This document shows, piece after piece, positions 1 to 60,860 of a DNA stretch of 64,000 nucleotides (position 1 is its first letter; each line of letters begins with the position of its first letter). A model generated the notes under the pieces. The model had not been told where the DNA came from. It saw nothing but the letters and a program-made list of their open reading frames with translations, and did no database searches. Made by a program: the position numbers and the translations under genes. This DNA comes from Haliclona indistincta (taxonomy: Eukaryota > Porifera > Demospongiae > Haplosclerida > Chalinidae): contig OZ024783.1 in NCBI GenBank assembly GCA_964017065.1, forward strand, positions 3,521,665 to 3,585,664, given 5' to 3'.

Positions 1-1935
1 AATCTTGCATAGAACAGATCATGTCTTGTGGCTTGTTCCTTGAATGGCAACGTGCAGGATGAGGGTGTCTACCTGACTGCACAGCGTGAGGACAGTAGAA
101 CCCAAAGTCCCAGTGCACATCTCGAGTGTGAGGATAGAGTGAACCAACTTCACCGAACATTGTCCATAGCTGGTGACGACACTCCAGGATCAAGCGTGGG
201 TTGATGACGGCATCAGTAAGAATACGAACCTCCATGTGACCAACCAGACTACGAATCTCAACATGAACCAATCCTTCTTCTCTGTCATCGTTGAAGTAAA
301 AGCGAATTCGATTCCTAAATCGATTGAGCTCATCAAGTCTCCACTTCTCATCTTGAGAGAATCTGACAACCGAGGCTTCGAACTGACCAAGGGGGACAAA
401 GCCAGTAGCTGGTATGAGGAGGAGAGGAGAATAGAAGAGACCAGAAAGGCGACCAGAAAGGAGCTCGGGGTCGCTGGACTCTATCGTCACATTGTGGTCG
501 GGGTAGAGGAGGCATGGCAGGAAGTACACCTCTTCTCCACTAGCAGAACGAGCATCCTTGTAGAGGATATAACACGACTCTAGTAGCTCCACAATCTCAT
601 CAGTCGGTATTCCCGCCTCGTCAGTAGAGGATTGACTGCATGCCTTGTTCATCAGACGATGAGAAACTTCTCCTGTGAGTCGCATGTGTTTAGCTGCCTC
701 TTGTTCTCCTCTTGCTGCTCCAAATGCAGACTTAAACAGCTCTGCTGGCGGCTTCATAATCAGGTTAACATTCACAATAACACGTTTGCCAAGCTTTCTC
801 AAGCGACGATAGTAACGGATAGTGCCATACTTGTTGTGCAGGTACTGGAGCACACCAGGAAGGACTTCTCTGGAGATGCCACATTGCTCAGCTATTACTG
901 CACATTCTTCTAGAGAGCACCATCCTGGAGATGGATCGAATCTCATACGTAGCATCAGGTAGAGCAATAATGCACCTGTTGGAACCATCTGTGGAGCAAA
1001 CCTCTCATGGACTATTCTTTCTATCAGTTCACGAAGACCCTCAATATCGCTAGAGTCTTTACTCACATTGTTGAGTGGATGAATGTATCTCTTCTCCTCT
1101 CCTGGCTTGTTGACTGAGCACAGAACATCTCTTTTCATGAAATAGTCGTCTTGGAAGGATTGCTGAATGGAGCGGTCGAGAGTGAGAACAGCTGCCTCAC
1201 TGGTCTGGTCGAGGTGAGTGCCAATGAGAATGGCTGCCGGCTTGTGGTATGGACTAGTCTGGAGTGAGGAGATGCTGCACAGAGCACGCTGGATGATCTC
1301 TCTGGTAGTGTACTCTGATTCATACTGTATTGAACTGGACCCATCAGCTCTGTACACTACTGTGTAGGGAGAGTCTAGATCGTGAGTGACGTTGAAAAAA
1401 ATCAGGTTTAGTGCCATGCCGTGCAATAGAAGAGGTAGGATTTCCTGAAACTCTGGCTGGTCTCCAATATCGATAAAGTGAATAAAAGAAGGGATATCAG
1501 TATTCTTGAGGAACTCCTGGATGGTCTCCCACTCCTCATCTTTGACTAATTCAGTGAGTGTGGTGGCCACTAGCTCATCTTGTGCATGATGAGAAAGACA
1601 GTCCCAATCATGTACAAGGGTGGCAGGGGAGTTTAGAATATGGCTACACAAAGTACGGCACTGTTCCTTCAGTCCCTGGCTCCTCCACTCTCCCTCAGAC
1701 AAGAGCACTGATGATTGGTCAATGTCATGATACAACTGGACAGTAATTGGAGCATCTATACCGGTACTGGGAACAATCTCGTCAGGTGATATGTGAACGA
1801 TCTCGTGAGTAAGACGACGTCGTGCTGTGGTTTTGCCAACACGAGATGGTCCGATCATGAAAGCCTTGAGTGAGCGTACTGGTACGCTACCTTGCTGCCG
1901 AATGTGATGCTGCACAATGCTCCTCTTTACAGCTC
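1..1935 (-). CDS. Gene A exon 6: Roc-COR domain exon (partial)
   Basis: The minus strand is open from the acceptor at 1936-1937 to the window edge, about 645 codons. It starts in phase 1, completing a glycine codon with the last base of exon 5. The Walker A motif lies just after the methionine codon at 1856-1858, DIGDQ is at 1457-1471, and a COR-type winged-helix stretch follows. Compared with gene B it carries an in-frame 12-base duplication near 450-470 (four extra residues, RLSG) and lacks a serine-rich insert after the Walker A region. No stop or frameshift was seen. Confidence 0.88.
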
Positions 1936-4900
1936 CTACAGAGCCTATTGTATAATGAAAACATCCATAACGATCAGAAGGAATTTTAACTGCAATGACA
2001 ATGACATGTAGAGGTGACCACCTGATTTAAGATGGTGGCTGCAATGGGCTCATCAATTTTATCATTTTATATCAAATTTCTAGCTGTTTTTAAGGTGGCG
2101 GGTTACTGTTCACGATAAATATTAATGGGTAAAATTCTTTTTCCTTAGAACGTCCGACAGAAACTATGTACCAAAGCTAAACACATAGGTCCAACTGTCC
2201 TGAAACATCCGGGACTGTCCCGATTTTATAGGCCTAGCTGTCCCGCAGCCCGTACAGAAGGCGCTTTTATCTTGCAAATAATAGCTGCCTAACTCAAAAG
2301 AGATTAATAACACACTAGGGCAAGGAAAACTAGCTATAAACATATCCAGAGCACAGTAAATAACCTCAAAGCATGCTACTCCATTTAGTGGGCAGGGCAG
2401 AGTGTGATCACGTTTAATTCATAAGCCTAAGGGAATGTCTGTAACCATTTAAATTAATATGACGTATAACGTAGCATGTACAGCAATAGCTAGTCTATGA
2501 GAAGCGCCTTATATCAAGCCAACGACGTCTTCGAGTGAATGACGAAGCCTTTTCTCGCTATTATTCTCGAATCGCGAGTTACTGTTGGTATACTAACTGT
2601 GACCTGCGTTAAAACTTCATGAAAAGTTCTGCAAAGCAAATTTTCAAAAAAGCTCAGTCATTCACTCTTTAAGTTGTTGATCTATAAGCAGGTACTAGCC
2701 AGTAAATAGAAAATGCAATTATCTACACAGGATCAAAGTCTTGTGGGAAACTCTGAATTTTATCTCTCCATTGCCATGTATTTCTCCATTGAATTTTATC
2801 TCTCATAGTATAGTGAGCTTGTTACAGTCTGTACAATGCGTGGGCAAAACGCAACCTGCTACCTTAACTCTTTCACAAGCTCAAGCACTTACAAGAAGTC
2901 CACTATAATGTCGATGATATCGCCTGCTCGTTGACATAAATCAAGATGGCAACTCACCACCAAGCGAAATATCAGCGTTTGAACACTAATAATGCATTAT
3001 AGCCACCATCTTGTTTTCCATCCCCATCTCTACATAGGGATGCACTAACATGCGTTCTTAATATTCATTCTTTATTTAGCTGACTTTATAATTCTGCTAT
3101 TTAAAACTCTGAGTATCCAGAATAGCTGTAGCATGGACAAGTTAGATACATCCCATGTTAGCGGAATTTATGTAGTAGTTATTTCATGCCTACTTAGTGT
3201 GTATAGGAAGAAATACACGAGTAAATGGGTGTAAACCTCAAGGGCGTAGCCCAAGGGTCTATTCACACATTCACGAGTTGGTACACACAAGGCAGGTATG
3301 AGATGCAATAGTTTATTACCCCTATGAGAGAATTATCCGGTTAACATTCACAAGCACGATAGCACGAAGCGCCCTCATGCTTATGACAGTAAACTGGATA
3401 TTTCCCAAGTACGTGATAACTGATTTATAACTCCATTGCTAAATGATCTAGAAACCGCATGGCCACAAGGTGAGGTCAAGGTCATGGTAGGATCAGCTGT
3501 GTGGTGTAGAGACAGCAACCGTAAGGAAAGTAAAGCAAAGACTAGAAAATAGGAAAGAAATTACTTATCAACGTTTTGTGTGTGTCTAGTGCTTCGATCG
3601 TGCTATCATGGGTGCGAGTGCAGCTATGTATTGCCGCGGAGACTCCCTCAGACTCATTGCACTATGGTGTTCTAGGTTTAATAAGCTAGAAAAATGTTTC
3701 TTTAGCTCGCAGGATCTTTGTTGAAAGTGCTTTCGTAGGATCTTTGTTGAATGTGCTACACGTTTTTTGCCAGCAGTCCGTGACCTTCACTGGTAAAAAA
3801 TGACTATCTTTCTCAAAGAAATACTGTGTAAATAATTTTCCTGATTTCCAGTGTGTGGGAAGCTATTCGAGAGAAAGCAAGATATTTTGATAGTAGAAAA
3901 AGATTCGTCTTAAAATAAAGTTTTAGTCTTAAAAATAATTTATTTTCGTTGGCTGTTATTGTCCTAAAAATTATTACGGTGAAATTTTTCAACACAAAAA
4001 AATTCTTCTCACAAGTTGACTAAGAAATTTACTACTGTAACACAAGAAACTAACTATAAAAGTGTTGATCACGAACTGTCAAGCTATGTATGAGCTCGAG
4101 TTGACCGGCACACCCACATGACCAATTTCGCTCATGTCGGCGCATGCTATTATTAACCCTCGGCGCATGCGCGAGGGTTACGGTACTTGGTTTGTCATTC
4201 GTTCGTTCATTCATTCGTTCATTCATTCTGTCCATCGAGCTATACAGAGACCATCGCTCACTTCTGAAACTCGGTAAGGGTATGAACAGGCTTAGCACGA
4301 CAGTGGCTTGCAATGTGACTCGTGGATTTTGCTAAAGTGCTTTCGTTCTCGAGTTATGTATGGCTGGCTCACCTTGACGGCCGTCTTTGACCTCTCTGAC
4401 GACAAAAGCGCCCATAGTTGACTACCTAGGTACTTGTAGATTCCATCTAAACTGCAGGACAGCTCTGGGGGTGCGTAGACATGTCAAGAAAAAGCCTATC
4501 AAAGCCAAGAGCAATGGCTACCTACTCAGTGTTCACGGTCGCGCCCACTGACACACCTTGTCCTTGTGGTCAGCACTTTGCTGTCTTCTGGTTAGCAATG
4601 CAGTTTCAATAGCAAGCAGGCTGCAAAACTCCATGCAGTTTCAATATAGCTATAGCCTATAAGCTAAGCAGGTTGGCACTAGCTGCAAACTCCTGCTGCA
4701 ATCTCCAACTAGGGAGCTTAGTGCTAACCTTACAATATGTGCAACGGTGCTCACACGCCGAGGGTTTGTGAAATTCGTTCATTAACCCTCGGCGCATGCG
4801 CGAGGGTTACGGTACTTCGTTTGTCAGTAACCCTCGGCGCATGTTGAATGTGCTACGGTACTTAGGGTTACGGTACTTAGTTTGTCATTTTTCTGTCAAG

Positions 4901-13900: not shown

Positions 13901-16900
13901 AAATAATTGTTAATTTATGGTAATTTATGCGCATTTAATATTTAATTTGTGATAAAACCCAAAAGCTACCTCTAGAACAATGCTATCATCTATTTTATAA
14001 CTCTAGGGATGTATACCTTCCTAAAAATCACCATTAACCTTAGTCCCTCAAAATGATACCCTCCGACCCCCCAAGCTCACGGTCTATACAGTAATACGTG
14101 AGCCAGGCGTTGGGTGCCAAAATTAATTCACCAAAATGCAAAATCTGCGTCATTCGCCAAAATTTTACCCTCCAAAATTTCTAGCTATAAATTATGGAAT
14201 CCTTTACGCACTATACTACCAAATATGGTGTTATTGCGGCAGACACCTCTGTAAATGCTTCCCAAACAAACTGAGTAACCACAATACTACCTTACTTGGT
14301 AGTACAGTGTCTAAAGGATTGGCTGTACAGGCCCATTGAGCATTAGACATTGTGTGATGCATCATACATGTAGGGGTTTGTCCAAGGATTAACAACATAC
14401 AATCCAGAAAACTTCTGAGTGTATACACATAATCTCACCTTATTGACAGCATCAGTTGCCGCACCTGCCATTACTAGTAGTTTAGCAACTGTTACATGGC
14501 CTGAATATGCACTTTGATGTAATGGCGTCTGATCAAACTACAATGAAATGAAGAGCACATTGTTAAGGCGTGTCCGCACTGGGAAACCGGGTTGAATCCG
14601 GGTTGGATTAAAACCAGACTTACCCCGGTTGAACTTGGTTAGCGCGCGACCGCACTCGACCCGGATCGATGCAAGTCGGATCCATGCAGCAGTCCAACAT
14701 AGCGTTTATAGCACTAGCACGAGAGCTTCTAAGTCTTTCTCTAGCGCTTGAGTTGAGTGCTCAGGGAATGTCTCTAGCGCGCGTACACGTGGCGGTGCCA
14801 AGATGAACCCAGTTTCAACCCACTTCAACCCACATACGTATGTGGGTTGAACCCGGGTTGGCTGAACCCGGGTTCAACCCGGATTCGCCAAAACCGGGTT
14901 GAGTGCGGACGCGCGCAACCCGGGTTGAACCCGGGTTCGCGCGCCAGTGCGGACATGCCTTTAGTGAGTATGAAATGCATTCATGATTATCATGGTACCA
15001 ACAACACCCGCTTGTCTGTGTGTGCAGCCTTGGTGACTGTTGTGCTCTTATGCAACAGCGGAGACTAACAAGCAAGTGAACTAGGGTTTGACCTCCCGGA
15101 GCAGGACTACTTGCCATCAAAAATCATTATTCTGGTCCACCCATCAGTAAAATGGGCACCTTGTCTTGCACTAGGGAGCATTAACCATGAAAGGAAACTT
15201 CAGTTGCCTACCAGCACTGTCAGTACTCTTGTAAGTTCTTAGCCCAGCTCGTATAGCACATGCTCAGTGCACAAGTGCCCACTTGAAATAGCAGAACACT
15301 TTGCTTTTTTATGAGAGTGTATGTGTGCATGTGTGAGAGTGTGTGCTATACCTGGTCACGGGCATTAACCACTATCCCAGGCTGAGACAGCAGTGTGTTA
15401 ACAACCTTGGAGTGTCCATTCAGCGAACTGATATGTAAAGCAGTCCACTGTAAGTAAAGAAACAATACACACTGACCGATGTATGATAGTTGCCAACTTC
15501 TGAAAAATTTTGCTCGGGACACTCATTAATATTCAAACCACACCTACAAAATTAATTGACCACACCTACAAATTAATCGACCATACCCATTAATTTTAAT
15601 AAACACGCCTATTAATTTGTTTACTCTGTACTAGCTTGAGGTAGTCTGTGGAACACCGCGTGAAGCAGACCGAGTGACACGACTAGCAGAGGCGAGAGCA
15701 GAAGAGGAAGCGCTTATGGCAGAGGAGGAAGCACTTGTTGAGGCCGAGGAATGAGCCAAGTGCTAAAATTCCGGGACAATCTGGGACAATTGTCTTTCCG
15801 GGACACCGTCGGGACAATAGCCATTTTCCCGGGACCGTCCCGGCCAAACCGGGACGGTAGGCAACTATGGATGTATGCAAGAATGAATTATGATAGATAT
15901 TAGCTTGGCAATGTCCCAAGGCTTACAGTTTTCCAGGTATAAACAAATTTTAAATTTTATACAGACAGGCTGATACTAACCCTAGACTCATCTACAGTAT
16001 ACATCTACAATGTCTACATTATTATGATCTACATTGATCATTGATTTACATTGATCTACATTATACATGTAATGCTTTGTACATTTTAGATCTAGCCTAT
16101 AAACAGATAGTCAATACACAGAGTTTCATTCATTATTTCATTCCAGATTACCACCATTGTACATGTGGAATTATGATGTTGTGGTATCACCCTCATGCAT
16201 TACCCCATAGACGTTTTCCAACTTTGTATACTTGGCAGGCAAGAACGTACAGTAGTGATAGGGAGATAGGCTTTTCCCCTACCGCTACGCTGCAAGAAAG
16301 GCAACGCCACCAACAAGGCTGTTTCTATGTAATAAAGCTGTATAATATTCTCTAACGCGGCTGGAGCTGGTGCGCGTCCTGCCACAGAAGCCCACCACAC
16401 GCCCAACCACTCACAATACAGGCTTTCCCACCAACATAGCAGCTTAAGCCCGTATATTCAACAAATTGGAAAAGGTCTATTGTGAGAAACTTTGGAGAAG
16501 GCGAAAACTTAGTAAAGGTGAAAGCTTGATGATTTTGGTATACAGTATGAAAAAAAGCAAAAAAATGATATGCCAGCATTGCCTGTCACATTTTAAGACT
16601 ATCAGGGCTGTACTAACACTGCAAGCACTATGGGTATAGGTTTCAAATAACAGTAACAATTTGAATAATGAGAAAAACGAAGGTGACAGCCCACTGTTGG
16701 TCAGGGTCCACGGATGCATTTCACGAAAGTATGTATTTATAGTGAGAAAAACACGCTATGACGAGGTGACCGCCCACTGTTGGACAGGGAACGGATGAAT
16801 TTCGCGGGAGTATACTGATCTACTGTGAGCTTCACATACTTTCGTGAAATGCATCCGTGGACCCTGACCAACAGTGGGCTGTCACCTTCGTTTTTCTCAT

Positions 16901-21310: not shown

Positions 21311-21585
21311 TTAGTTGATCATGATCTTGTCAGCCAACTCCTTTTCTCCGATTCTGTTTAGTGCATCTTTCAACACACTCCATGATGGAATTCCTTCCAG
21401 TGAGACTATGTCTTTTTGTTGTAACCAGGCCAAAAGCATCTCCATGATACAATCATTTATTGTGCCGTGCTGTTCACGATCTATCCTTTTCAAAGTAGGG
21501 TAGAGAAGCCCTAGTTGTAGTCCAAGTCTCTTCCACTCATCGAGATTATGAACCACAGGAAACACATGCTTGAGGTCCTCAACAG
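21311..21585 (-). CDS. Gene B last exon: Death domain 2
   Basis: It encodes DEWKRLGLQLGLLYPTLKRI, MEMLLAWLQQKD, PSWSVLKDALNRIGEKELAD and stops at TAA 21311-21313. The total length closes the frame exactly. Confidence 0.88.
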
Positions 21586-24500
21586 CTGTGAGTAAAACAA
21601 ATGAGTGCGCAGTAACAGCTATAGAGACTGTTTTATAGTAACTCACTGAGTGTTTTAGAAAGGTCATAGGCTGTAGTACAGGGGGTGGCAAAGACCTTGG
21701 GAATGGTGAGATCTTGTTTCGAGGTGGCAGGGACAGAGGGATTCTGTTCTGTATTGGGGACAGTGGGATTCTGTTCTGGAACGGGGACAGCGGGATTCTG
21801 TTCAAGTCCTGAGGTATAAATAGAAACACTATGACGTCAATCAATGTTAATACAATCAAGTACCTTTTATGGGCACAGCGTGTATGCAGGCTCTTTCAAT
21901 GTCACTGGCAACACTGTTGTTACCTATTGCTCTCAATGCTTTGACTAGGTCAGTCCATGATGCACCAGGGGAGTTCTTTAACCAAACATCAAACACATGA
22001 CTCTTGAGTATGTCAACCCCTTGAGGAGAATAGGTCTGGTAAATGTTCTCCAGTTGCGAAATGGTGAGACCCAGTTCTATGCCAAGTTGTTTCCAGTGAC
22101 TAACATTCTTGCATGCTGCGAGAAGATTCTTTACATCAAGATAATTCGAATCTGCAGAATAATTAAATGAAGTGAATTGGCTTCTCTAAAATACTTAGTA
22201 TACTTACTGTCCTGTCTAGTATCATCTTGAGTGATACCATCCTCCTCATCAATACCTGCACTCATGTCTATAGTGCAGTATCAGACACATAACATACATT
22301 TTATATGTTCTAGAACCATACCTGGTGATAACCAACGCAATTCCTTTTTCTTTAATCTACGTGCTTCTTTAATTTGTTCACACTCAGCCATATGTCGTCC
22401 AGATCGTTCACAATCAGCTTCATCATGATCTGATGCAGATTTGCAGGGAATATGGCGAGAATTCAGTATCGGAGGTCTGCAGGAGCAAGGAAAGGAGTCC
22501 TCGATAGTGATGCTCTCTATATCAAAGCTGAGCCTCTTCCCCGTTTCAAGAATTGCCTCGTGCACATCGGATCGAATATAAGAGCACTCACTATCAAGAA
22601 AGGAGTAGTAGATATCTAGCTGAACTCGTCTCTCGATGATGGTGACGATACCTTTATTGCCAGAACGACAAAGTACAAAGATGTTCCTGTACTGTTGATC
22701 ATTGCCTATGCTAAACGAGCCAGATGACAAGAGCAAGACAATTAGTGTAGGAGAGAAGCCAGGAGGCAAGGGAACATAGTCATGCTTTGGTCTGCGTTCA
22801 CATCTTAATCTAATAATCAATGGATAAGATAGATTCTTCATTATCTTGTCTTCTTCATTTAGAGCGTAGTTTAGTACACATGGCATAAAAAAAGATCGTG
22901 GTTTAGATTTCTCAATAATGGCTACAGCCTTTACCTCAGCAAGAAGATCGATAAATGCCACAGCATTGAGTGGTTCTGGAAACTGGAAGGTCACTTTCAA
23001 TGTCTGCTCATCAAGCTGACCACATTTTTGGAATTCACTCCTAATATCATAATTAAGTTCAATGTTAAAGTACTTCTTGAGCTCATTTTCTTTAAAAGAT
23101 GATATACCAATTAGACGGGACACCAACTCAAAGACAGGCTTTAGGTTTATGATAACAATGGAGTCGAGTGAATCTGTCTGGTAGTGCAAGATGAGGTTGA
23201 GGTTATGGAAGAATGTGATTGCCTTCCTGGTCTCCTGCTCATCCATATCCAGTGAACTGCCAATATCCAGACACTCCTGCAGTGATAGAATGGCTTTCTT
23301 TCTGGCCTCTTTCTGCAGACTAAGATAGAATCCAAACCAACATAGCTTTATCTTAACTGTTATGGAAGGCGCTTTACTGATTCGTTCTCGTAACTTTAGT
23401 ATGTATTTATCTCTCTCTTCCTCATTTTCAGTGACTGCATTGATGGGCAGGATAGTCTTACCCATTTGAAGTTTCTCATAAGCTTTCAGATTTAGGGCCA
23501 GGCTAGCATTTTTGTCATCAATTGACTCATCTGCACATTCTTCCACTTTGTCAGCAAAAGTCCCAATAATGGTAAATCTTGCTGTGTGATCATCCCAATC
23601 TGATAAAGGGCTCAAAGAAGGAAGAAAAGGAGACATTGATTTAGCAAGTGACTCTAACAGCTGCCCGTGTGAACACTGGAGCATTGTATCAGCCATATTG
23701 ATAGGTTCATCTTTTATACAAAATGAGAACTTTGGGATGGTATCTAACCGCTCATTAAGCTTCAGAGTGAAGAGGGCTAGACATCTGTTGTGGACAAAGA
23801 GAGGAAAAACGTCCAGATAGTTAGGCTGACCACCAGAGTCAGAAATTAGTATCAATCTCGTACTAAAGAGAGTTGATGATCCTTTAACATTGGGAAGTCG
23901 TTGCATGATGTCTTTCAGTACCTGAGGAAAGTCTCGTTCACGCTTGGCTTCAGCTATAGGAACAGGAGAAGAGCGAGAGGAAGGTCGAGAAGGAGAAGAT
24001 GGGCGGGATCTAGAGGAAAAGCGAGAAGAAAAGGAAGGACGAGAAGATGGTGGAGATTTAGTGGAATGTTTTGAAGAAGACTTGTGTGATGAAGAAAAAG
24101 GAAACAATGTAGAAGAAACAGTAGAAAACCGATCATCGGAGATAGGTTCAAACTCATGCTGCAGGACAGTAGGTTTTGTAGCAACAGGTTCAGCCAGAGC
24201 TTCGATAGTCTTACAAACCATGTCAAACATTCTATCAGGAGTGAGCTCCTCCCACTTGACATTTACAGTAGTTGAACTATCATCTCCTACTATAATGGAA
24301 CAAGATGGTGGCTCAGCAACACCAGTACTATGGTGATATATAACAGGGGGTTGACCCATAGCTAGTCTAATAACTGAAGTCTTCCCCGTAGCTGGAAAAC
24401 CATGTATACTGACATTAGAGATACTGAGAGAGACGTTATGACCCAGCTTGTCCATGGCTTCATCCATATCAACTAGAAGAATCATTTATGATCACGTTTA

Positions 24501-26694
24501 CAATAACAGAAATACTTAGCTCACTTTGTGAAAGTTGATAAATAGGAGCAGGTGATGGTAGAGACAATGAGGATGGTGGAGGAGACGATGCTGGAGGAGA
24601 CAATGGTACTTCCTACACACGTGTACACATAATAAGTTATAATTGTTCCAACCATGCACTGTGCACTCACCGTAAACCAGCACTTGTGTTTGTTCTCTAA
24701 ACCAACTGGTCCTTCTCGACAATCTCGTATAGAACAGACCACATGTTGTGGATTTATCTTTGAGCGACAGCGTGCAGGATGAGGCCGTCTGCCTGACTGG
24801 ATAGCGTGAGGACAGTAGAACCCAAAGTCCCAGTGCACATCTCGAGTGTGAGGATAGAGTGAACCAACTTCACAGATCATTGTCCACAGCTGGCGACGAC
24901 ACTCCAGGATCAAGCGTGGGTTTAAGACGGCATCAGTAAGAATACGAACCTCCATGTGACTAACCAGACTACGGATCTCAACATGAACCAATCCTTCTTC
25001 TCTGTCATCGTTAAAGTAAAAGCAAATTCGATTTCTAAATCGATTGAGCTCATCCAAGCTCCAATTCTCATCTTGAGAAAATCTGACGACTGAGGCTTGG
25101 AACTGGCCAAGAGGGACAAAGCCAGTAGCTGGTATGAGGAGGAGAGGAGAATAGAGAAGACCAGAGAGGAGCTTGGGGTCGCTGGACTCCATCGTCACAT
25201 TGTGGTCGGGGTAGAGGAGGCATGGCAGGAAGTACACCTCTTCCTCACTAGACGATCGAGCATTCTTGTAGAGGATATAACACGACTCTAGTAGCTCCAC
25301 AATCTCATCAGTCGGGATTCCCTCCTCGTCACTAGACGATTCACTGCGTGCCTTGTTCATCAGACGATGAGAAACCTCTCCTGTGAGTCGCATGTGTTTA
25401 GCTGTCTCTGGTTCCCCTCTCACTGCTCCAAATGCAGATACAAACAGCTCTGCTGGCGGCTTCATAATCAGGTTGACATTCACAATAACACGCTTGCCAA
25501 GCTTCTCTAACCGACCATAGTAAAGGATAGTGCCATACTTGTCGTGCAGGTACTGGAGGACACCTTTCAGGTCTGCTCTTGAGATGCCACAATGCTCAGC
25601 TATTACTACACACTCTTCTAGAGAGCACCATCCTGGAGATGGGTCGAATCTCATGCGCAGTATCAGGTGGAGCAATAATGCACCTGTTGGAACCTGCTGT
25701 GGAGTAAACCGCTCGTGGACTATTCTTGTTATCAGTTCACGAAGACCCTCAATATCGCTGGAGTCTGCACTAACGTTGTTGAGTGAATGAATGTATCTCT
25801 TCTCCTCTCCTGGCTTGTTGACTGAGCACAGAACATCTCTCCTCATGAAATAGCTGTCTTGGAAGGATTGCTGAATGGAGTGGTCTAGAGTGAGAACAGC
25901 TGCCTCACTGGTCTGGTCGAGGTGAGTGCCAATGAGAATGGCTGCCGGCTTGTGGTCTAGACTAGTCTGGAATGAGATGTTGCTCAGAGCACGCTGGATG
26001 ATCTCTCTGATAGTGTACTCTGACTCATACTCTATTGAACTGGACCCATCAGCTCTGTACACTACTGTGTAGGGGGAGTCTAGATCGTGAGTGAGATTGA
26101 AGAAAATAAGGTTTAGTGCTATGCGATGCAATAGGAGAGGTAGGATCTCATGAAACTCTGGCTGGCCACCAACATCGATAAAGTGAAGAAAAGAGAGGAT
26201 ATCTGTATTCTTGAGGAACTCCTGGATGGTCTCCCATTCCCCATCTTTGACTAACATAGTGAGTGCAGTGGCCACTAGCTCATCTCGTGTGCGATGAGTA
26301 AGATTGTCCCAATCCTGTACGAGGGTGGCAGGACCAGGTGAGCTGCTGGCAGCAGTGGATGGTCTAGTAGTAGACCTACTGCTGGACGGTACAGCAGGGG
26401 AGTTTAGAATACGGCTGCACAAAGCACGACACTGTTCCTCCGGCCACTGGCTCCTCTCAGACAAGAGCACTGATGATCGGTCAATGCCACGATACAACTG
26501 GACAGTAATTGGAGCGTCTATACCGGTACTGGGAACAATCTCGTCTGGTGATATGTGAACAATCTCCTGAGTGAGACGACATCGTGCTGTGGTTTTCCCA
26601 ACATTAGATGGTCCGATCATGAAACCCTTGAGTGTTTGTACTGGTACACAGCCCTGCTGATGAATGAGACGCTGGATACTATTAACAGCAACTC
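21311..26694 (-). CDS. Gene B: double Roc-COR, double Death domain protein, 5' exon(s) not found
   Basis: Seven exons join in frame with phase 1 at five of six junctions: 26694-24671, 24612-24525, 24472-22322, 22267-22208, 22151-21864, 21808-21647 and 21585-21311 (stop TAA). They give about 1,680 residues. Order: Roc 1 (Walker A GPSNVGKT, DVGGQ, THLD) with COR; a Ser/Pro linker; Roc 2 (GFPATGKT at 24378-24401, DSGGQ at 23826-23840, TFADK) with COR; an acidic linker; Death domain 1 (HWKQLGIELGL...); three tandem EQNPxVP units; Death domain 2 (EWKRLGLQLGLLYPTLKRID...). ROCO proteins are GTP-dependent dimeric switches; Death domains bind other Death domains. The first visible exon starts in phase 1, so an upstream exon (ankyrin in gene A) is needed; none was recognised up to 35 kb, perhaps displaced by the hAT insertion. 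Confidence 0.85.
21864..22151 (-). CDS. Gene B exon: Death domain 1
   Basis: 96 codons with six-helix Death pattern: DVKNLLAACKNVSHWKQLGI, ELGLTISQLENIYQ, VFDVWLKNSPGASWTDLVKA, LRAIGNNSVASDIE. Phase 1-1 makes it a movable symmetric exon. Confidence 0.85.
22322..24472 (-). CDS. Gene B exon: Roc-COR module 2 with Ser/Arg-rich insert
   Basis: A 717-codon exon carries a second complete set of GTPase motifs and a COR-like region. A low-complexity Ser/Arg/Pro segment (around 23960-24090) lies between the Walker A and DxGGQ motifs. It is not closely similar to module 1, so this is not a recent internal duplication. Confidence 0.82.
24671..26694 (-). CDS. Gene B exon: Roc-COR module 1
   Basis: It is open from a TTGTAG acceptor to a GTGAGT donor. 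It is closely similar to gene A exon 6 along its length but keeps the G3 glycine (DVGGQ at 26162-26176). It has a Ser-rich insert after the Walker A region, near 26330-26400, that gene A lacks. Confidence 0.88.
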
Positions 26695-29081: not shown

Positions 29082-29150
29082 CCAACTGATAGAACATGGG
29101 CGCCAACTGATAGAACATGTGCGCCAACTGATAGAACATGGGCGCCAACT
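29082..29150. repeat. 22-base minisatellite, about three copies
   Basis: The unit GCGCCAACTGATAGAACATGG repeats at the 5' edge of the last hAT fragment and adds MFYQLA repeats to its frame. Confidence 0.8.
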
Positions 29151-29198
29151 TCAACAATAATGTTATTTGATGTACAATAATGAGATGATTACAATAAC

Positions 29199-37880: not shown

Positions 37881-38112
37881 ATCAAGAGTCCTGCAGCTCG
37901 CAACTTCTGTTGTCAGACGGGTGTCTTCGTCAACTGTCCAGGAGCCCCAAAGCCCTCGGTTGGCGGAGGGGACAGAGTCCAGCGGCTGGCGTTGTCACCT
38001 GTTCTTCACTGTCCTGACCTTGCCCTTAGTGAAGGGCCCTTAAAGGCGAGCTTTGCTGTACTCTCTGTGTATTTTCCTATCTGCTGTTTTTTTCTCTTAG
38101 TCACCGCGAATA

Positions 38113-38994
38113 ATGGCAGCTCCTCAGCTTCGCGCTCCACGTCCTTATTCCCTCGGGGAGGACTTCCAGTTATGGCTGCGTCGGTTCGAAGCATTCGCTA
38201 AGGCTGTCAAGACACCGGACGACCAGTTCTGTAATGCTGTTTTGTCTCTGCTAGATGATGGTGCGTTCCGGGCGTTCGACCTGTTACGGAATTCAGACGC
38301 GCTTGTTGACGCGGCAGACTACAAAGAATTGACTAAAGCGCTCACCGAGAGATTCAGCCCTGGGACAGCGATGCAGGAGCTACGGTGGCATCTAAGTCAA
38401 CGAGTTCAGGAGGAAAAAGAGTCACTCGACGAATTCGCAGATGCTCTAATTCACCTCGCAAATCGTGGTTACCCGGACCAGACTGCTAATTTCAGGATGG
38501 AGATAGCTGGAGACAGGTTTATTGCTGGTCTCCGAGATGACCGTCTACAAGAAGCGCTGATGCAACAAGAGCCGGACAAATTAAAGAATCTGGATGAAGC
38601 CCGCAAGGCAGCAAAGAGATTGGAAGCAGCACAGCTAGCTCGGAAGAAGATGCGTGCTAAGGCAGTGGAAGTCCGGCGAGTTCAGTTCACTGAGCCGACT
38701 CTAACTACTCCTGCTGATGTTAATGCTGTTGGAGCCAGAGCTAGGGGCGACGATGATTTAGCTGAGGCGGTTCGCCAAAACACCGTGATGTTGCAGCAGT
38801 TGCTAACCCAGTTCAACAATCGACAACCTACCGGACGTCGTCCTCCACGTCGACCACGCCGACCACCTTTAGGAAGTTGCTGGCGCTGTGGTGAAGAAGG
38901 TCACTTCCAGCGAGACTGCCCACATCCTAGCCCACAACCAGCGGGAAACGATCAGCGACCGACGAATTGGGTCAACCGCCGGTCGCAGAAGTAA
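38113..38994 (+). CDS. gag: Gag polyprotein of the Ty3/gypsy element
   Basis: 293 residues from ATG 38113. The N-terminal two thirds are helical and capsid-like (retrotransposon gag pattern with WHLSQRVQEEKESLDEFADA). An Arg-rich linker leads to a CCHC zinc knuckle, CWRCGEEGHFQRDCPH, near residue 257. Gag forms the particle and packages RNA. It overlaps pol by about 28 bases in a different frame, so pol is probably made by -1 frameshifting. Confidence 0.92.
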   Translation: MAAPQLRAPRPYSLGEDFQLWLRRFEAFAKAVKTPDDQFCNAVLSLLDDGAFRAFDLLRNSDALVDAADYKELTKALTERFSPGTAMQELRWHLSQRVQEEKESLDEFADALIHLANRGYPDQTANFRMEIAGDRFIAGLRDDRLQEALMQQEPDKLKNLDEARKAAKRLEAAQLARKKMRAKAVEVRRVQFTEPTLTTPADVNAVGARARGDDDLAEAVRQNTVMLQQLLTQFNNRQPTGRRPPRRPRRPPLGSCWRCGEEGHFQRDCPHPSPQPAGNDQRPTNWVNRRSQK

Positions 38995-44661: not shown

Positions 44662-45255
44662 CATGCACGTACAAAGCTTGGCACTTGTATGATCTTAAGC
44701 TCCTACTCCTCTACAACTCTTGAGGATGTCGCCAAAGCCAGCTTGGGTGGACTGAAGTGGTTCCGGCTCTACCTGACTAAGGGTCAAGAGAGTTGAAGAA
44801 GCCGGCTATAAGGCTCTTGTGCTGACAGTAGATAGTCCTAAGCAAGGCAAGAGACTACCGATGATAAAGAACAACTTCACCTTTCCACCACACATCACAT
44901 TTGCTAACTTTTCTGACACTGGAGCTCAGTCATCGTTTGTCATAAAGAGTCAAAATCACTACTCATCTATTGTGAAAGATCCTAGTCTGACATGGACGAG
45001 TTTGGACAGGTTGTGCCGCTTGACAAACTTTCCCGTGATACTGAAGGGAATTAGCTGAAGATGCCCGGGAGGCAGTGAAACACAATTCATTGTTTCTAAT
45101 CATGGAGGAAGACATGCAACTAGATGGAGTGCCAGCTACTGTAAGTCAACTCTCTATCATAGAAAATGCTTAACTATTTCTTTTGTGTTCACCATTTAGA
45201 TCGATGCTCTTCGTGAGGTGGTGGAAGGGTTACCTTTCGCTCATGCATTATAAAT
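44662..45255 (+). pseudogene. Glycolate / 2-hydroxyacid oxidase-like (FMN-dependent) pseudogene
   Basis: Exon-like blocks after acceptors at 44661 and 45200 encode recognisable FMN_dh sequence: LGTCMILSSYSSTTLEDVA, GYKALVLTVDSPKQGKR, FPVILKGI (flavin-contacting Lys), AEDAREAVKHN, VSNHGGR (catalytic His) and GVPAT/IDALREVVEGLP. This family oxidises 2-hydroxyacids such as glycolate in peroxisomes. The frame breaks after KWFRLYLTKG, within LKGI-AEDAR, and again after SNHGGR. The N-terminal part of the barrel is not found nearby, so this is a decayed copy. Confidence 0.75.
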
Positions 45256-45401: not shown

Positions 45402-48400
45402 TTAGTTGTACTCCTTGACTATATTAGGATCTCTGAGATTCTTTTCAACAATCTTAGTACATTCTTTTGCCTCATCCAATGGCATTGTTTTCAAGCACTC
45501 GAGAAGATTTTCAAATGTATATGGTGAGCTGGCCGATCGCTTCCATTTTGATATAACTTCACTCAATTTTCCAATGGGTGTTGGCCTACCCAAATTATTT
45601 TGGATGACATCTAGTGCAGTCGTAGAAACATTTAACTGCTCTCCAAGTTGACGCCATTCAATCTGTATGTCATTCAACCAATTCACTAGATGCCTCATTT
45701 GTGGTTCCTTCATCATCATCATTTCATCTGTACATGATAGTAGAATAATGTGAATAGTTAATGTTTAAGTGTTGAAAGTTATTGGAGTCAAGTGATTGTA
45801 GTTATCTATGTTATAGCTAACACTTCCTACAAGGTGCACAAAAATTTGAAACACTTACTGTACAGCAGTTTTTTTACTTCTTGCAAAATAAATACGTGCA
45901 GTGACTTGACACATATTATTTAGTGACTAGCTGCAAGGTTACACTTTATACTCAAACTTTCCTTGCAAGAAGTAATAAATCCTCTGTAATTATGTGCAAG
46001 CTACAGCACCACTGAATGTCAGCTCAATACCATAGCAGGAATCATTGCAGACTTGTCCCACAATGCTAAGCATTAAGTATTAGTTAACCCTTTAAGCCCT
46101 AATGACACCCTATGGCTTCAGTGGCCATAATTAATTTATTTTTAAATAGTAGAAAATTTGAGATTTTATGGCTTCAGGATGACCAGAAACACATTTCGCA
46201 CATTCTCCATGATCTGGGGTACATTTTGCACTCACCTAAACCACTGCTATTTGTATGTACTTTTCAGTAACCAGCCCCAAAGTACTAAAGGCCATGATAC
46301 ACTAGGCAACTTTGTTGCGCACAACTGTTGCCAGCAACAAAATCGCGTAGTGTGTCATGCAAATTCGAAGCAACTTTGTTGCGTGCAACATTGTTGTGCG
46401 AATAGAACGCCCTTCTATTCCAGGCAACAAAGGTGCGTAGTGTATCATCACCTTAACATTGAGTAAATGTGACGAGGTCATTTATTGGCTTCACTTCCAC
46501 AGTGCATGGGAGCCACGGGCATCCTGACTGACTTGAGTATGGGCAATTGCGGCTACTTACTGGCAAAAACAGACCGACATGAGATATTCGTGAGAGAATT
46601 GGTCAGCATTTACGAGGTTAAAATTCCAGCAAGATAGTTAGCGTTAATGCACTTTAAGAAAGACAATAGGAACATGCACCATGTAAACGTCATGTGAGCT
46701 GTTATGTACTTTCCTGTCGGTTGACACAGGAATTAGACAGGAAATATGCTCCCGAATATTGTAGGATAATTGCATGCATGGTGCATGCGTGGGTGTTGGT
46801 ATATAAGGTGTACAGGTATGATAGTTAATCATTCCTAGGCAACGTGCAGCCACTCAGTTTGTCCCACCCCCCCACCCCAGTGTGCTGAAGGGTGCTGATA
46901 TGCATTTGATATCTTTCTGAGTATTTTCCTCTCAGTTACCAACCAATAGATGAGGTGATCAAAGCAGGAGCAAGAGCAGGGAGCAAGGCTGTGGACTGGA
47001 CTCTGTCTGCTAATTATTGTGATTACTTTTGTAATTATTGTGTTTGCACAGGTGCGACAAAAATTTTTTCAGGTCAGCACTATGATGTTGGCATAGTGCT
47101 TGAGATTGACCAATGAGCTTATTTAGCCTGTCTAAAGAAATCCTAGCTGGCGTGTTTTTTTTTTAAGCACCATTGTGAATGCAATATCAGTTGTGTGAGC
47201 TGTTTAAGTTTCTTTGGGTTTTACCAGAGCATTTTGTCCTCTAAAGAGGTTTTATCTCTGGGTTTTTTCCCTTGGGTGATGTTAGACCAGCATCACCCAT
47301 GAATACGAAGTATTATCTCTTTTTCTTTTGGTCTCAGCTCAATGTTGTTTAGAGTGTGTTACTTGCGTAATGTGTGTGTGTGTGTGTGTGTGTATGTACG
47401 TGGTAGAGTTCAAGCTGCGTCTAAAGATTGTTAAAGTTGGGCATTGTGCATTTCGAGATGGTTGGTTAATTATTCACATGAGGCGAGCTTAGTTCATAGT
47501 TATAGTGGAGTGCGCGAGCTGTTCAGTTAATGCTTTGCATCGAGCTTGTGTTTGCAAGGTAGAGGTTGATTGCCTTAGGCATACCATAATATATTTTATT
47601 GTCAAGTTGATTTTGAGTTCTTCAGTTTTGTACTTTTCATGTGTGTCATGTGACATAAGAAAATGTTTGTGGCGTGCACAGCAGGCCTTAACCAGATGTG
47701 TGGTGTTATGGTGCATGCAAGTGGGTGCATGTTCGGGAGCTCACATTATACAACTATGCACCATAATATTTCCTGTTGTGACCACTAAGCATCCCATGAT
47801 AAATTATTATAGTTATAGTTATTATATAGTCCTGTACAACACCTCACCACTATCAGCTTCTATCTTTTCAGATCGTCCAATTGCAGAAGACACGGATGGA
47901 CCTGCATGCATGCAAAAATTATATTGAGAGTCAAATTAAAGTCATTTATAAATCAGTCATGGCACTATTATAATGACATGTCTACATGCTGCTCACCTGC
48001 AGTAACAACTGGAATGTGCAATGGTGTATCATATTGTTGAGTCTGCTGATGATCTTTCTGAAGACCTGTATGCATTGTTTATTGAAATACAGTGAAAATA
48101 GCATTGGTATAGATTTACTTTTCAGATTGAAATGCCCCATGCATGCCGTAAAGCATGGTTCTTGAATATCCCCAGAATGATACCTTCCTAGCATATCAAC
48201 AGTGCAATCGATTGTCTCCTTCCGTGTTAGTGCCAGCATGCTGAAGATGTCCATGTCCTTAGTTATGTTTCTCCAGAGGTACCTTGTCCAATATCCTCCT
48301 TCTCTGTAGTCACCGGCACTTCGGGTGTCAGTAGCAATCGCTACAAGGCTGTTGACACTGGATGGAAGATAAAATACCGGTTTGGTGTCGTCAGCTCGAC

Positions 48401-48821
48401 AGCATACATCGAAGAAAAAGATTCTTTTTGTATTATTTTCGCGAGTAAATGGTGATAAGAGCTCATCGATGATCATCGTATCCGAGCCTGCCAATTCAAT
48501 GTAAGGCTTGTTGTTGGAGTCAGATCCACCATGACCAGCAAAATACAAGGCGATCGCTTCCACGGTCCCAGTAATAGGCGAGAAGCTAGCAGCTGCATGA
48601 ATAAGTGCAAGAAGTTTTTCTCGAGTTATGTCTATTTCAGCGTTGAGGACTGCAAATCCAAGACTGCCAAACGCTGTCATCATATTGGTCGTGTCTTTCA
48701 GGGCGCCCTCTGCAAAGCTCGATCCTAACACGATAGCTAGTCCTGGCTCTATTCCGGAGAACAACTGCTTTAGTAGCCTGGTGTAGTACTCAACCCATTG
48801 AGAATCTGACTGTGTTGCCAT
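45402..48821 (-). CDS. Gene F: caspase/paracaspase-like (C14) protein with C-terminal Death domain
   Basis: Four exons close in frame: 48821-48119, 48065-47997, 47901-47848 and 45727-45402 (stop TAA), phase 1 at each junction, 383 residues. The first exon is a C14-type fold: a strand-rich core, ALYFAGHGG with candidate catalytic His97, and FFDVCCRADD with candidate Cys141, closer to the paracaspase LDxCR pattern than to the caspase QACRG. A short Ser/Gln-rich linker follows. The last exon is a Death domain (EWRQLGEQLNVSTTALDVIQ, LSEVISKWKRS, FENLLECLKTMPL). Such proteases cut after acidic or basic residues when brought together by adaptors. Start chosen at MATQSD because the upstream codons run into repeat sequence. 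Confidence 0.82.
46088..46648. mobile_element. piggyBac-like MITE, second copy
   Basis: It starts after TTAA 46084-46087 with CCCTTTAAGCCCTAATG as at 9284 and shares internal text (TGATCTGGGCTACATTTTGC-type). The right end is diverged near 46640. It lies in gene F intron 3. Confidence 0.65.
46290..46455. mobile_element. Palindromic element nested in the second piggyBac-like MITE
   Basis: GGCCATGATACACTAGGCAAC is mirrored by CGTAGTGTATCATCACC, with repeated CAACTTTGTTGCG motifs between. The copy at 9284 lacks it. Confidence 0.65.
46650..47847. other. Gene F intron 3, remaining part
   Basis: It holds a (TG)n run at 47370-47392 and GT-rich text. A plus-strand stretch at 46938-47030 reads YQPIDEVIKAGARAGSKAVD after an acceptor-like site; it is too short to assign. 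Confidence 0.4.
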
Positions 48822-48913
48822 CTCCTGTCTCGTAATGCTGATAGCTCTAATACTAAAATTTTGGCGAATGGTCAAACATTCGCCAAAATCAGCTTTTTAT
48901 TATGTATTATTAT

Positions 48914-55688: not shown

Positions 55689-55689
55689 T

Positions 55690-56160: not shown

Positions 56161-56176
56161 ACACAAGTACATATAA

Positions 56177-56753: not shown

Positions 56754-59700
56754 ATGGAAGCCACTGATCTTGAAGAGCCTAAGTTCACATGTGTAGAAGC
56801 CTTTAAACAAGGAGACCATGATAAAGCATTGCAATTGCTTCCTAACCTACAGCAACCAGCTGCTGTACGAACATCTTACAATGTAATTCTTCCTTTCAAA
56901 CCTGATTCATTATCCACTAATGTTTCTTTGCTACACTTGGCAGCACTTAATGGCTGGATGGACATTGTAGCTATCCTGATAGACAGGTATGGCTGCAGTA
57001 GTCAATGCTGTGATAGCCAGGGTCAGACTCCGTTGCACTATGCTGCTTATGGTGGTAGCTTGATAGTGGTAAAGTACTTGATCACTGAACAAAATTGTGC
57101 TCCACTGGATTCATGTGATGGTACTAATTCTTTGGTCTATGCTTGTCTGGGAGGTTGTCTAGAGTTAGTTAATTATCTCATAACAGAACATCATTGTGAT
57201 GCAAATTTTTCAAATGAAGAGAAAGTATCACTACTTTCTATGCTCTTGAGTAAACAAATTGATATAGTCAAATACCTTATAAATGAAAAACGTTACGATC
57301 CAAACAGTATGGACCAAAAAGGCATGACTATGTTGCATAATGCAATAGATAAAGATAAAGAAATCGATCATCTTAGAATCCATTATCTCATCAAAGATCT
57401 AGGTTGTGATCCAGCAATACCGAATACAGATAATGATATGCCAATTCACATTGCTTGCCTTGGTGGTCAATTGATTGTTGTAAAGTATCTTATCAATGAA
57501 CAACGCTGTAGAGGACAATATGGTACGACACCTTTGCATTATGCTAGTCAAAATGGACACACTGATATAATCAAGTATTTGATCGCAGAGCATGGTTGTG
57601 ACCCAGCATTACCGAACAACAATGGTAACATGTCAATACACATTGCTTGTCTTTTTGGGCAACTAGTAGTTGTCAAGTACCTTATCACTGAACAACACTG
57701 TGAACTAAACAGTAGAGGAAAATATGGTAGGACACCTTTGCATTGTGCTTGTCGGAATGGTCACATGGATATAATCAAGTATCTGATTACAGAGCATGGT
57801 TGTGACCCAGAAGTACCGAACAACAATGGTAATATGTCAATACACATTGCTTGTCATTTTGGGCATCTAGTAGTTGTCGAGTACCTTATCACTGAACAAC
57901 ACTGTAATTCAAACAGCAGAGGAAAATATGGTAGGACACCTTTGCATTGTGCTTGTGAGAATGGTCACTTGGATATAATCAAGTATCTGATTACAGAGCA
58001 TGGTTGTGACCCAGCATTACCAGATGATGATGGTAATGTTATGCCATTACACACTGCTTGTCTTTCAGGGCAACTAGTAGTTGTCAAGTACCTTATCACT
58101 GAACAACACTGTGACCCAAACAGTAGAGGAAAATATGGTTGGAGACCTTTGTATTGTGCTTGTGATCAAAGCCATATGAACGTAATTCGGTATCTTATCA
58201 GTGAACAAGGCTGTGACCCTGCTGTTGCTGACAAGGATGGCAAGACATCGTTGCATTATGCCAGTGGTGCTGGCCATATTGAAGTTGTAAAGTGGCTGAT
58301 ACAAGATAGACGATTAGACGTATTTAATAAAGACAAAAATGGTCATACTGCAATTGACTATGCTGAATCCAGTCACAATAGCTTTGAACTGTTAAAACTA
58401 TTTAAACCTTTCCTGCAATCAATAAAGTCTTATCCAATTCACTCATTCACTAAGACTATTATCACAGGGAACAGTGGTACAGGGAAATCTTCTCTTGCTC
58501 AATGCATCATACAACAAGCAACTGGTGGCTGGTTTCAGCGGTTCAGGAAAGTGCCTCCTGTAGAACAGCTGACGGCTGGTATAAACACTCATTTTGTTTA
58601 CAGTCCTAGTGTTGGAAACATGATTCTGTTTGATTTAGCTGGACAAGCTGAGTACAACTTCAGCCATTCTGCTATAATGGAAATTGTCATACAAAAATCT
58701 ACAGCCATATTCGTTAATCTAGTAGATCTTAGCAAGAGTGAAGAGGAGATAACTCATGCTCTTTGCTACTGGCTCAACTTTATTCAAGAATCTTCAAGTA
58801 AAAGTGAAGAGAAATCATTCCTTGTGATAGTTGGCAGCCATGTCGACATGATCACTAAGAATCAAAATGAATCCAAGAAGTTGCTTTTAACTGAACTTGT
58901 AGAGGCAAGAACAAAAAGATTGGAATATGTTGGATTTGTTGGTATGGATTGCCGCAAGATGAACAATAAGAAATTCCCTTCTTTGGTTCTACAATGTCAT
59001 CGCTCTATATTGGATCAAGCACCTTCACTCAGTATATACTGTCATTTGTTGTATGCATTTCTTAGAACAAAGGTGGAAAGAATAGCTATTGATTTGAAAG
59101 ACCTCATATCAAATCTTATTTCTGTTAGAGATTCTCCGATTCCACTAGATATGCTTTACCTCAATGAACTGTTAGAGTCTCTGAATGAAATAGGTGTAAT
59201 TATTTACATGAGGAACAGGCAGTGTGTGGAGAATAGCTGGGTAGTAATAAAGATGGAAATTTTGTTGAAAGAAGTCAATGGTGTGCTGTTTGCACCAAAG
59301 CATTTCAAAGAGTATCTTCCAATAGCCAGCAATACTGGTATAATACATTTCTCTTCATTTCGAGAGCTGTTTTCTAAGTACGATCCTGAGATGCTGGTTG
59401 AACTATTGGTCAGTCTTGAGTTTTGTCTTCCTGTCAACTTGTCCGGTATTAATACTAATCTTCAAGCTACTGTTGCCACTGATGATGAAAGAGATAAATT
59501 TCTATTTTTTCCTTCACTGTTGAATACTGAAAGACCACAAGATTTAGTCATAGAACAATCTGATCTGGTTGCATTTGGATGGTGTCTTGGTTCCAAGGAT
59601 TATGAGTACCGATATTTTTCGGTTCGCTTTTTACATGTTTTGATTCTCCGCCTTGCGTATACTTTTCCTTTACCTCGTGAAAACATTTCTAAAAACTATC

Positions 59701-60860
59701 CTTTGCATGGACTTGAGCAGAAGTGTACTGTGTGGAAAAATGGCATTTCATGGAACAATGAAGATGGTATCAGGACAGTAGTGGAAGTTATCCAGCAAAA
59801 TCGTTGGGTGGTAGTGACCATGTACCACAACAAGGACATCACCAGTCCAATGGAGTACAGCAAGCATCGCAGTGCTGTGATCAGACTGGTTCTAGAGCTT
59901 CAGAAGGAACTGGCTCCAGACCTGGAGACATTGGAGTGTCTTATCTCACCCTCTCTACTCCATCATTGTCCGTTGGAAAGTATTCCTGAGACTGCATGCA
60001 AACCTATATTCTATCAAAGCTATTGCTAGGGCTGTACTCCTCCGCACACCAGTGATTCTTAGTTGCACTAATGACAGTCATCAGCTCTCGACTGAAAAAG
60101 CTCTATTCTTTGAGCCATATCATCTCTTGAGCCCCTCCTCTGTGTGTGATCTGATGGACAGCAGCAAGAGTGACCAGCTAGTCTCCTCTGCCCTCCTCAA
60201 TGAGGTGAGGGAGTGCTGTCAGCAGCCTCAGCTGGAGTCACAGAGCCACTTGAGCTTGAAGAAGCATTTGGACAGTATGAGCATATTCACAGGAAGAAAT
60301 CCTCTGGTGAGTATGTACATATGAAACTATACTCAACAAGATTTTATTTGTTTCTACAGGTAGTGGCAGGGCTTGTTGCTGATGAAGTTGACAAACTCAA
60401 ACAATCACCACCAGTTGTTGAAGGTAAATATTGATTAATACTCTCATACTAAATTGTCATGTGCACTTAGCAATATCAGGTCAGTCTGGTAGACAATCTC
60501 AACATGTTCCTACTACTCAACCAGTATCTACTCCTCCTAATGAGGAAGAGCCACAAGTCATGGTAGATTTAACCAAAGTTCCTGATGGCACACTTGGTAG
60601 GAAGTGCAACAACTCTTTGAGTATCATTTCATTCTCTCACTATAGATGACTCTCATCTATCAGTGTTAGTGACAGCACTGAGTACAGTGTATCAATGGTT
60701 CCCACTTGGTATCCATCTTGGTTTGAGTCATCCTACCTTGAAAACTATTGAAGAGAATCAGAGAGGACAAGTGGAGAGGTGTAGGATAGACATGCTAGAC
60801 CTGTGGCTGAAGGGCCCAGAAGACAAGCGTACTAAACAGTTCCTACAAAAAGCTTTGTGA
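56754..60860 (+). CDS. Gene G: ankyrin-Roc-COR-Death protein
   Basis: Exons 56754-60306, 60360-60423, 60471 (or 60480)-60596 and 60646-60860. Residues about 60-550 are some fourteen ankyrin repeats. Roc follows with Walker A GNSGTGKS (572-579), DLAGQ (627-631) and SHVD (695-698), then a COR region, a linker and a Death domain (VYQWFPLGIHLGLSHPTLKT, IDMLDLWLKG). The order matches the ANK-Roc-COR-Death part of DAPK1 without its kinase. ATG 56754 follows an in-frame TGA and an acceptor at 56740, implying an untranslated first exon. The long frame stops at 60029, but the adjacent +1 frame continues (YSIKAIARAVLL...) into the 3' exons: a one-base indel near 59995-60030. The Death domain ends early, before its expected last helix. 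Confidence 0.82.
57720..58140 (+). repeat. Higher-order ankyrin duplication, period about 207 bases
   Basis: A two-repeat unit starting AAATATGGTAGGACACCTTT recurs at about 57720, 57926 and 58131 (partly from 57520) with high nucleotide similarity. This indicates recent unequal exchange in the ankyrin array of gene G. Confidence 0.8.

Follow-up and report, generated by a model that had tools for sequence, protein, structure and literature searches.

ROCO proteins join a Roc GTPase domain to a COR domain, and in DAPK1 the full order is kinase, ankyrin repeats, Roc, COR and Death domain. PMC6337361 gives the positions of the DAPK1 kinase and Death domains, names the Death domain as the feature that sets the DAPK1 group apart and reports Roco dimerisation through COR. 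In Trichoplax, the ROCO family is expanded and carries CARD or Death domains, and at least three proteins have a predicted Ras-like domain N-terminal of Roc and hence two GTPase domains (PMC4104024, excerpts). In Amphimedon, Death/TRADD-N proteins are greatly expanded and carry exchanged C-termini, caspase among them (PMC8195603), and brown algae have an expanded, exon-shuffled ROCO family of candidate immune receptors (PMC11378527). Here, these systems are compared with a stretch of 64,000 nucleotides from the sponge Haliclona indistincta (contig OZ024783.1, here C1:3521665-3585664, referred to as the window), which contains what apparently is a single gene for two Roc-COR units followed by two Death domains, and with the surveyed genome of 144 Mb in 46 contigs. 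Exon anatomy and motifs are read from the DNA, and splice models and folds are predicted from it. The original prediction for this locus had pictured its ROCO genes, Death domains, a caspase-like protease and a receptor-like protein as one candidate cell-death or immune module.

The double-ROCO gene lies on the reverse strand and is modelled with seven exons, whose joined frame stays open for 1,677 amino acids up to the stop codon in the order Roc-COR-linker-Roc-COR-Death-Death. The first Roc-COR unit (A2) occupies the exon at 24671..26694, recognised by its invariant motifs, its AlphaFold match to LRRK2, LRRK1 and Roco structures and its splice sites; a Pro/Ser-rich linker exon (24525..24612), placed by its GT-AG borders and phase, leads to the exon of the second Roc-COR unit (B, 22322..24472), which continues in phase with A2. 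Downstream, the splice model adds a short exon (22208..22255), the exon of the first Death domain (B1, 21864..22151; Pfam Death 31.7 bits), a linker exon between the Death domains (21647..21808) and a last exon that holds the second Death domain (B2) and the stop codon (21311..21585). The Pfam score of B2 (20.1 bits) falls below the curated cut-off of 22.6 for Death (C14 21.4, COR-A 35.3 and Roc 27 bits), but a Death hidden Markov model (HMM) without B2 among its seeds gives 31.8 bits, and B is confirmed as being followed by two Death exons. All six junctions are GT-AG and keep a single frame, with the A2 exon ending in KHKCWFT directly before the donor GTGAGT and the B-type P-loop following 286 nt past that end. 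On this sequence model, A2 and B read as one gene.

The A-type unit is found in A2 and also in gene A, whose exon (2..2026, reverse strand; Pfam, alignment and exon-end pattern) is truncated by the window edge and which is 99.8% identical to protein P0025 across 638 residues. As several Pfam scores lie under the curated cut-off (COR-A: 17.1 bits for A, 20.5 for A2 and 30.2 for B), the A-type was tested by structure. The AlphaFold model of A2, built from 51 aligned sequences, reached a predicted local distance difference test (pLDDT) score of 75.8 and a predicted template modelling (pTM) score of 0.77, and its 17 PDB matches at E<=0.001 all come from LRRK2, LRRK1 or prokaryotic Roco. The GTPase motifs G1, G3 and G4 are present in the A-type, with the P-loop, DxGGQP and GTHLD positions invariant in all 51 sequences (G18, K19 and T20; D159 and G161; T242 and D245), while 24 of the 51 match Pfam Roc and 13 match COR-A at E<=0.01. 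Searched against the PDB by sequence, the A2 profile reached the LRRK2 Roc domain at a mere E of 0.12 and phmmer of A2 returned no match at E<=1; in viral contigs, 41 stretches fitted an A-type pattern and none was confirmed. Based on the predicted fold, the A-type is a Roc domain followed by COR and belongs to the ROCO family.

The second unit is identified as ROCO by its COR-A score and its 139 homologues, many of them bearing PF16095, and has the GTPase motifs GFPATGKT, DSGGQP and a divergent GTFAD, recognised by eye; phmmer of B against the PDB gave a single match at E 0.66. Gene A and A2 share 81% identity across 668 residues and are each only 21-23% identical to B, so that the two halves of the gene are old relatives rather than a fresh duplicate of one exon. 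Together with gene G, described below, all three genes originally called ROCO-type (A, B and G) hold up as such, whereas the number of Roc-COR units in the window is four and not three.

The tandem arrangement recurs at the window edge. The exon-end pattern of gene A lies at C1:3521618-3521635, 30-47 bp beyond the window, and 386 nt after this end a B-type P-loop follows on the same strand (C1:3521232), which gives a second tandem copy. A-type and B-type homologues are furthermore found on identically sized contigs in eight cases among 101 and 92 distinct listed sizes, against 0.06 expected; two of these contigs (147780 and 171659) bear the A2 and A proteins of the window itself. Among the 25 B homologues listed, several start at MDKLG or MGHNV, while those that extend further upstream are mutually unlike before approximately DxDEA and contain intron-like residues in places, a divergence as expected of an internal exon. 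Of the 120 listed among the 139 homologues, two are named by organism, both from Amphimedon queenslandica (22-26% identity). An Amphimedon protein homologous to B, P0261 (LOC109582865; 26% identity), likewise unites Death and COR-A in one sponge protein, but this partial record has three N-terminal Death domains and one COR-A match, whereas the double-ROCO gene has two Roc-COR units and C-terminal Death domains.

Across the genome, the A-type exon appears to be spliced to more than one kind of neighbour. Its exon end plus donor matched 104 sites (<=2 mismatches) against none in a reversed control, and the roughly 100 copies share a phase-0 donor. Among 103 exon ends analysed (100 listed of the 104 and three from a separate search), nine are followed by a strong Death domain (from the best 150) within 1.5 kb on the same strand (rotation mean 0.1, p = 0.0005), two, both at the window, run into a B P-loop (p = 0.0025), and one runs into a C14 domain (p = 0.019). 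This last case, L052 (C6:2530298-2534101), belongs to a 0.55-Mb stretch of contig C6 in which A-type ROCO and C14 genes cluster, and at its positions 3-2316 an A-type Roc-COR exon and an exon for a canonical caspase are read in one phase. The Roc-COR part scores 572 bits with the A-type HMM, Pfam giving no match at E<=0.01, and ends in KHKCWFT before the donor GTAAGT at C6:2531664; the acceptor, likewise in phase 0, follows after 94 bp, and the caspase exon starts at C6:2531759. The caspase exon carries THG and a QACRG-type active site (QSCRG), scores 111.9 bits with Pfam and matches caspase-3 at E 1.3e-19. L052 is the sole locus with an A-type or B-type HMM match among 30 C14 loci searched with their flanks.

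Could the tandem gene and the fusion instead be adjacent separate genes with chance splice sites? An in-frame ATG lies barely inside the presumed intron ahead of the second Roc domain, and metagenome gene calls give the exons as separate proteins. Nevertheless, the six GT-AG junctions in one frame, the dissimilarity of the longer listed B homologues before about DxDEA, the repeated tandem that begins with gene A and, in L052, the use of the family's conserved donor with a good acceptor in the same phase all speak for splicing, and separate genes appear improbable.

The best explanation, to which we assign a probability of about 0.48, is that the A-type Roc-COR exon would be a GTP-binding switch joined by splicing to varied outputs, namely Death domains, a second Roc-COR with Death domains, or a caspase, and that the window samples a ROCO family which is very large and tandemly duplicated. 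In the double-ROCO protein, the two halves could form a built-in Roc-COR pair, the equivalent of ordinary Roco dimerisation. A GTP-driven conformational change may then, depending on the nucleotide state, expose the two Death domains, which would nucleate a Death-fold assembly through Death-Death recruitment, with Death-bearing proteases among the outputs, and the whole possibly acting in cell death or immunity. The family is very large: a rough count, probably a lower bound, gives about 268 ROCO loci when COR-A matches are merged with A-type exon ends, B-type P-loops and G. This count includes 37 B-type P-loop matches (about two expected to be false per reversed control), and COR-A itself matched in 139 of 150 scored from 209 candidates. 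At least 150 Death matches exceed the cut-off (all of the best 150 scored out of 1,372 first-look candidates), and C14 matched in 45 of 45.

Several observations weigh against the switch-and-output explanation. For the double-ROCO gene, no first exon could be placed, and no ligand-sensing domain was found on A2 or B. The splice sites were selected by inspection with knowledge of the reading frame, so that the in-phase joining is partly a matter of choice, and an ATG forms the seventh codon of the L052 caspase exon, which makes a separate start, and thus a separate gene, possible; both points also speak for adjacent separate genes. Moreover, a downstream module was read for 12 of the 103 A-type exon ends (with the Death search covering the best 150 of 1,372 candidates), and the Roc-COR::caspase fusion is single, being found at one of 103 exon ends and one of 30 C14 loci. 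A bolder version, in which the fusion would be a GTP-gated, adaptor-free initiator caspase, the double-ROCO protein a single-chain gate, and both members of an NLR-like, exon-swapped class with ROCO replacing NACHT, is conceivable though doubtful.

Compared with the described systems, the double-ROCO gene differs from DAPK1 by the lack of ankyrin repeats in the exons found. With the ROCO proteins of Trichoplax it shares an early-animal expansion, Death-fold domains and, as predicted for at least three of them, two GTPase domains per protein (PMC4104024), but in the sponge each tandem half is a Roc-COR unit, and the frame of a sister exon continues into a caspase. The Amphimedon Death/TRADD-N proteins likewise represent a lineage-specific expansion with exchanged output domains, the central module being TRADD-N there and Roc-COR in H. 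indistincta (PMC8195603). In brown algae, the family is also expanded, with exon shuffling and a proposed immune role; the excerpts describe leucine-rich repeat exons on the sensing side as being shuffled, whereas in the sponge it is the output side that varies (PMC11378527). Among the titles and abstract openings listed from open-access PubMed Central, no report of a tandem Roc-COR, such as the one followed here by two Death domains, or of a Roc-COR::caspase fusion was found, which is not proof of absence. Already described are ROCO proteins with Death or CARD and with two GTPase domains (Trichoplax; PMC4104024, excerpts) and the Death-COR protein P0261 of Amphimedon. If the explanation is true, the single-chain Roc-COR pair and the fusion would be natural tools for the question of how GTP binding and dimerisation of ROCO proteins such as LRRK2 and DAPK1 are converted to output, since their own output would be a protease and hence measurable, and ROCO would be suggested as a parallel to NLR at the base of animals.

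The caspase-like protease of the window, F, also lies on the reverse strand. Its C14 exon (48119..48896) is supported by a Pfam score of 34.0 bits, an alignment of 28 sequences and a caspase fold; the upper border is that of the open frame, and the aligned part has its first ATG near 48820. The His/Cys dyad of the caspase fold is present, with the His in FAGHGG and the Cys in FDVCC, as seen in the alignment of 28. Residues R87, Q184 and R233 of caspase-7, which we take to be the Arg/Gln/Arg S1 pocket for Asp, align with A, D and G in the family profile of F, and FDVCC stands in place of a QACxG-type site, so that F has neither this site nor an Asp-specific S1 pocket. Four homologues of F (P0128, P0132, P0135 and P0144) show, by eye, an N-terminal hydrophobic stretch resembling a signal anchor ahead of C14, and some may therefore be membrane-anchored.

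A terminal Death exon (45402..45727; Pfam Death 28.6 bits, with an acceptor) probably belongs to F. A GTAA donor occurs at the identical place in F and three paralogues, in L077 and L078 the paralogous C14 is followed downstream by a Death exon from the group to which that of F belongs, and in a further paralogue (L070) Death matches flank C14 on both sides. The D-x-C of the F active site is presumably the pattern of MALT1 as well. MALT1-type (type 1) paracaspases combine a Death domain with a C14 peptidase (PMC5978004), as F probably does, but MALT1 has an N-terminal Death domain and immunoglobulin (Ig) domains, whereas the Death exon of F lies downstream and the two F exons scanned gave no Ig match. 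On the strand of F, the Death HMM found no match upstream of it in the window. A MALT1-like paracaspase was considered for F and set aside: D-x-C is suggestive, yet every listed PDB match by profile (best 60 of 126) or fold (best 50 of 1,181, plus another 50) is a caspase, MALT1 being absent among those listed, which does not exclude it. By phmmer, F matched only acyl-CoA oxidases in the PDB (E 0.11 and 0.32). Of the caspase- or paracaspase-like Death protein first proposed, the caspase fold stands and the link to the Death exon stays probable.

Gene G (56754..60860, forward strand) encodes an open frame of 1,302 amino acids across five exons (56754-59979, 60020-60306, 60360-60423, 60480-60596 and 60646-60860), with an in-frame stop directly before its first ATG. 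It shares the order ankyrin-Roc-COR-Death with DAPK1 but differs in the kinase, for which neither the main open reading frame nor ten selected upstream frames (52.0-56.3 kb) gave a match. Roc, COR-A and Death are weak by Pfam: Roc scores 24.0 bits (with an LRRK2 Roc match at E 0.0014), COR-A reaches E 0.056, and for Death there is no match at E<=0.01, this domain being detected only by HMMs seeded with the G Death itself and by its likeness to C14-linked Death domains. With these qualifications, the earlier reading of G as a ROCO protein with a Death domain is sustained.

A tree of 37 Death domains, from which matches shorter than about 56 profile positions and duplicates were dropped, relates the ROCO side to the protease side. 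The G Death groups with three C14-adjacent Death domains (L070, L081 and L065; supports 84/81 and 85/84, below the star mark), and the nearest relative of B2 is that of L081 (42% identity across 81 columns). The F Death groups with other C14-linked domains (94/80), and its next relatives are the ROCO-linked Death domains at L013 and L018. The tree is weak: stars mark six of its 34 inner branches, and long branches meet in places. Its labels cluster by gene type (6 changes versus 16 in shuffles), so that sharing between ROCO and C14 genes is the exception. Homotypic pairing of ROCO-side with protease-side Death domains is possible on these sequence relationships, without F being singled out. 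These Death groups common to ROCO-linked and C14-linked genes, together with the L052 model in which Roc-COR sits directly on a caspase, count against the view that ROCO-Death proteins serve as scaffolds in trafficking, the cytoskeleton or tissue patterning, with Death as a mere oligomeriser and the expansion due to drift in a fast-duplicating genome. Roco proteins elsewhere do serve chemotaxis and trafficking, according to excerpts of PMC4104024, and the immune role of ROCO-Death proteins here is one that we only infer; such scaffolds seem unlikely overall. A functional link between ROCO and caspases, as proposed for the window, is thus better placed at the level of the family, where it is supported by the in-phase L052 gene model rather than by the window neighbourhood, and more weakly by the Death group that B2 and G share with the C14 side.

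Proximity itself was examined by rotation tests, with the 45 C14 matches merged to 41 at 3-kb distance and the size of C4 set to an estimated 15.7 Mb. C14 near COR-A matches was not significant, with p = 0.10-0.24 when chromosomes were rotated and 0.054-0.18 when the whole genome was. Near any ROCO mark, 3, 8, 10, 10 and 12 of the 41 were found at 10, 20, 32, 64 and 100 kb, with p values of 0.20, 0.030, 0.025, 0.092 and 0.10, uncorrected for the five scales; eight of the ten cases within 32 kb come from a single cluster, C6:2.42-2.97 Mb, which also bears the L052 fusion. The expectation that ROCO and C14 genes neighbour each other more often than by chance, checked in the source genome, is therefore weakly borne out at 20 and 32 kb and not at 10, 64 or 100 kb. 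C14 near Death was significant (p about 0.015, chromosome rotation) but says little about ROCO, since 12 of 30 C14 loci are themselves flanked by a Death match at no more than 1.5 kb. COR near Death was not significant (p = 0.21-0.59, chromosome rotation), although many COR loci have a Death exon, because the Death set was the best 150 of 1,372.

Perhaps the window ROCO-Death genes and F are nonetheless inherited together as one cell-death module, with F recruited by B or G. The weak excess at 20-32 kb would fit this, as would the 0.18% of 8,940 overlapping 64-kb windows that hold at least one C14 and at least two ROCO loci, against 0.04% if independent; in that count G was a manual addition and gene A entered through a 500-bp margin, so that this window was favoured. 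In other assemblies, one F homologue and one A-type homologue are found on identically sized contigs (155,851; 0.03 expected). With ROCO, Death and C14 so common in the genome, co-occurrence within 64 kb is only weakly unusual, and the excess is lost at 64 and 100 kb and with COR-A matches alone. In addition, transposon sequence (28.6-32.8 and 38.1-42.9 kb) separates B from F, and the F Death is nearest to C14-linked Death domains and then to those at L013 and L018, not to B2 or G. A co-inherited module is thus very unlikely, the closeness of F to the window ROCO genes is most likely incidental, and the physical module of the original prediction is not supported. The cluster as evidence by itself was rejected, its C14-ROCO excess being weak, scale-dependent and drawn mainly from C6, and the neighbourhood has little importance of its own.

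Protein C (19487-20119, forward strand) is an open frame with no Pfam match. The region 18559-20119 on this strand combines a hydrophobic exon with a tail of about ten YxxL/V-like motifs, both recognised by eye and without Pfam support, and its product is possibly a membrane protein with a tyrosine-signalling tail; of the receptor-like protein once suggested, the open frame is confirmed, and the motifs and hydrophobic exon rest on inspection. A scan of five proteins against NCBIfam returned no matches. Three ankyrin-repeat exons on the reverse strand (14343-17524) perhaps belong to another ankyrin gene. The transposon sequence comprises hAT-like transposase pieces on the reverse strand (28576-32818; hAT dimerisation match 20.1 bits, slightly below cut-off, with the pieces at 31.1-32.8 kb assigned by eye) and a Gypsy-type retrotransposon on the forward strand (38101-42872) with gag and an open pol frame for reverse transcriptase, RNase H and integrase. 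Two forward-strand genes look like ordinary metabolic ones, an FMN-dependent dehydrogenase exon (44777-45058; 64.5 bits) that adjoins the Death exon of F and an aldo/keto reductase (62538-63365). Elsewhere in the genome, large tandem arrays of Death-domain genes lie at C8:11.89-12.24 Mb, C10:4.28-4.37 Mb and C7:8.30-8.45 Mb, with many long open frames of up to 1,531 amino acids.

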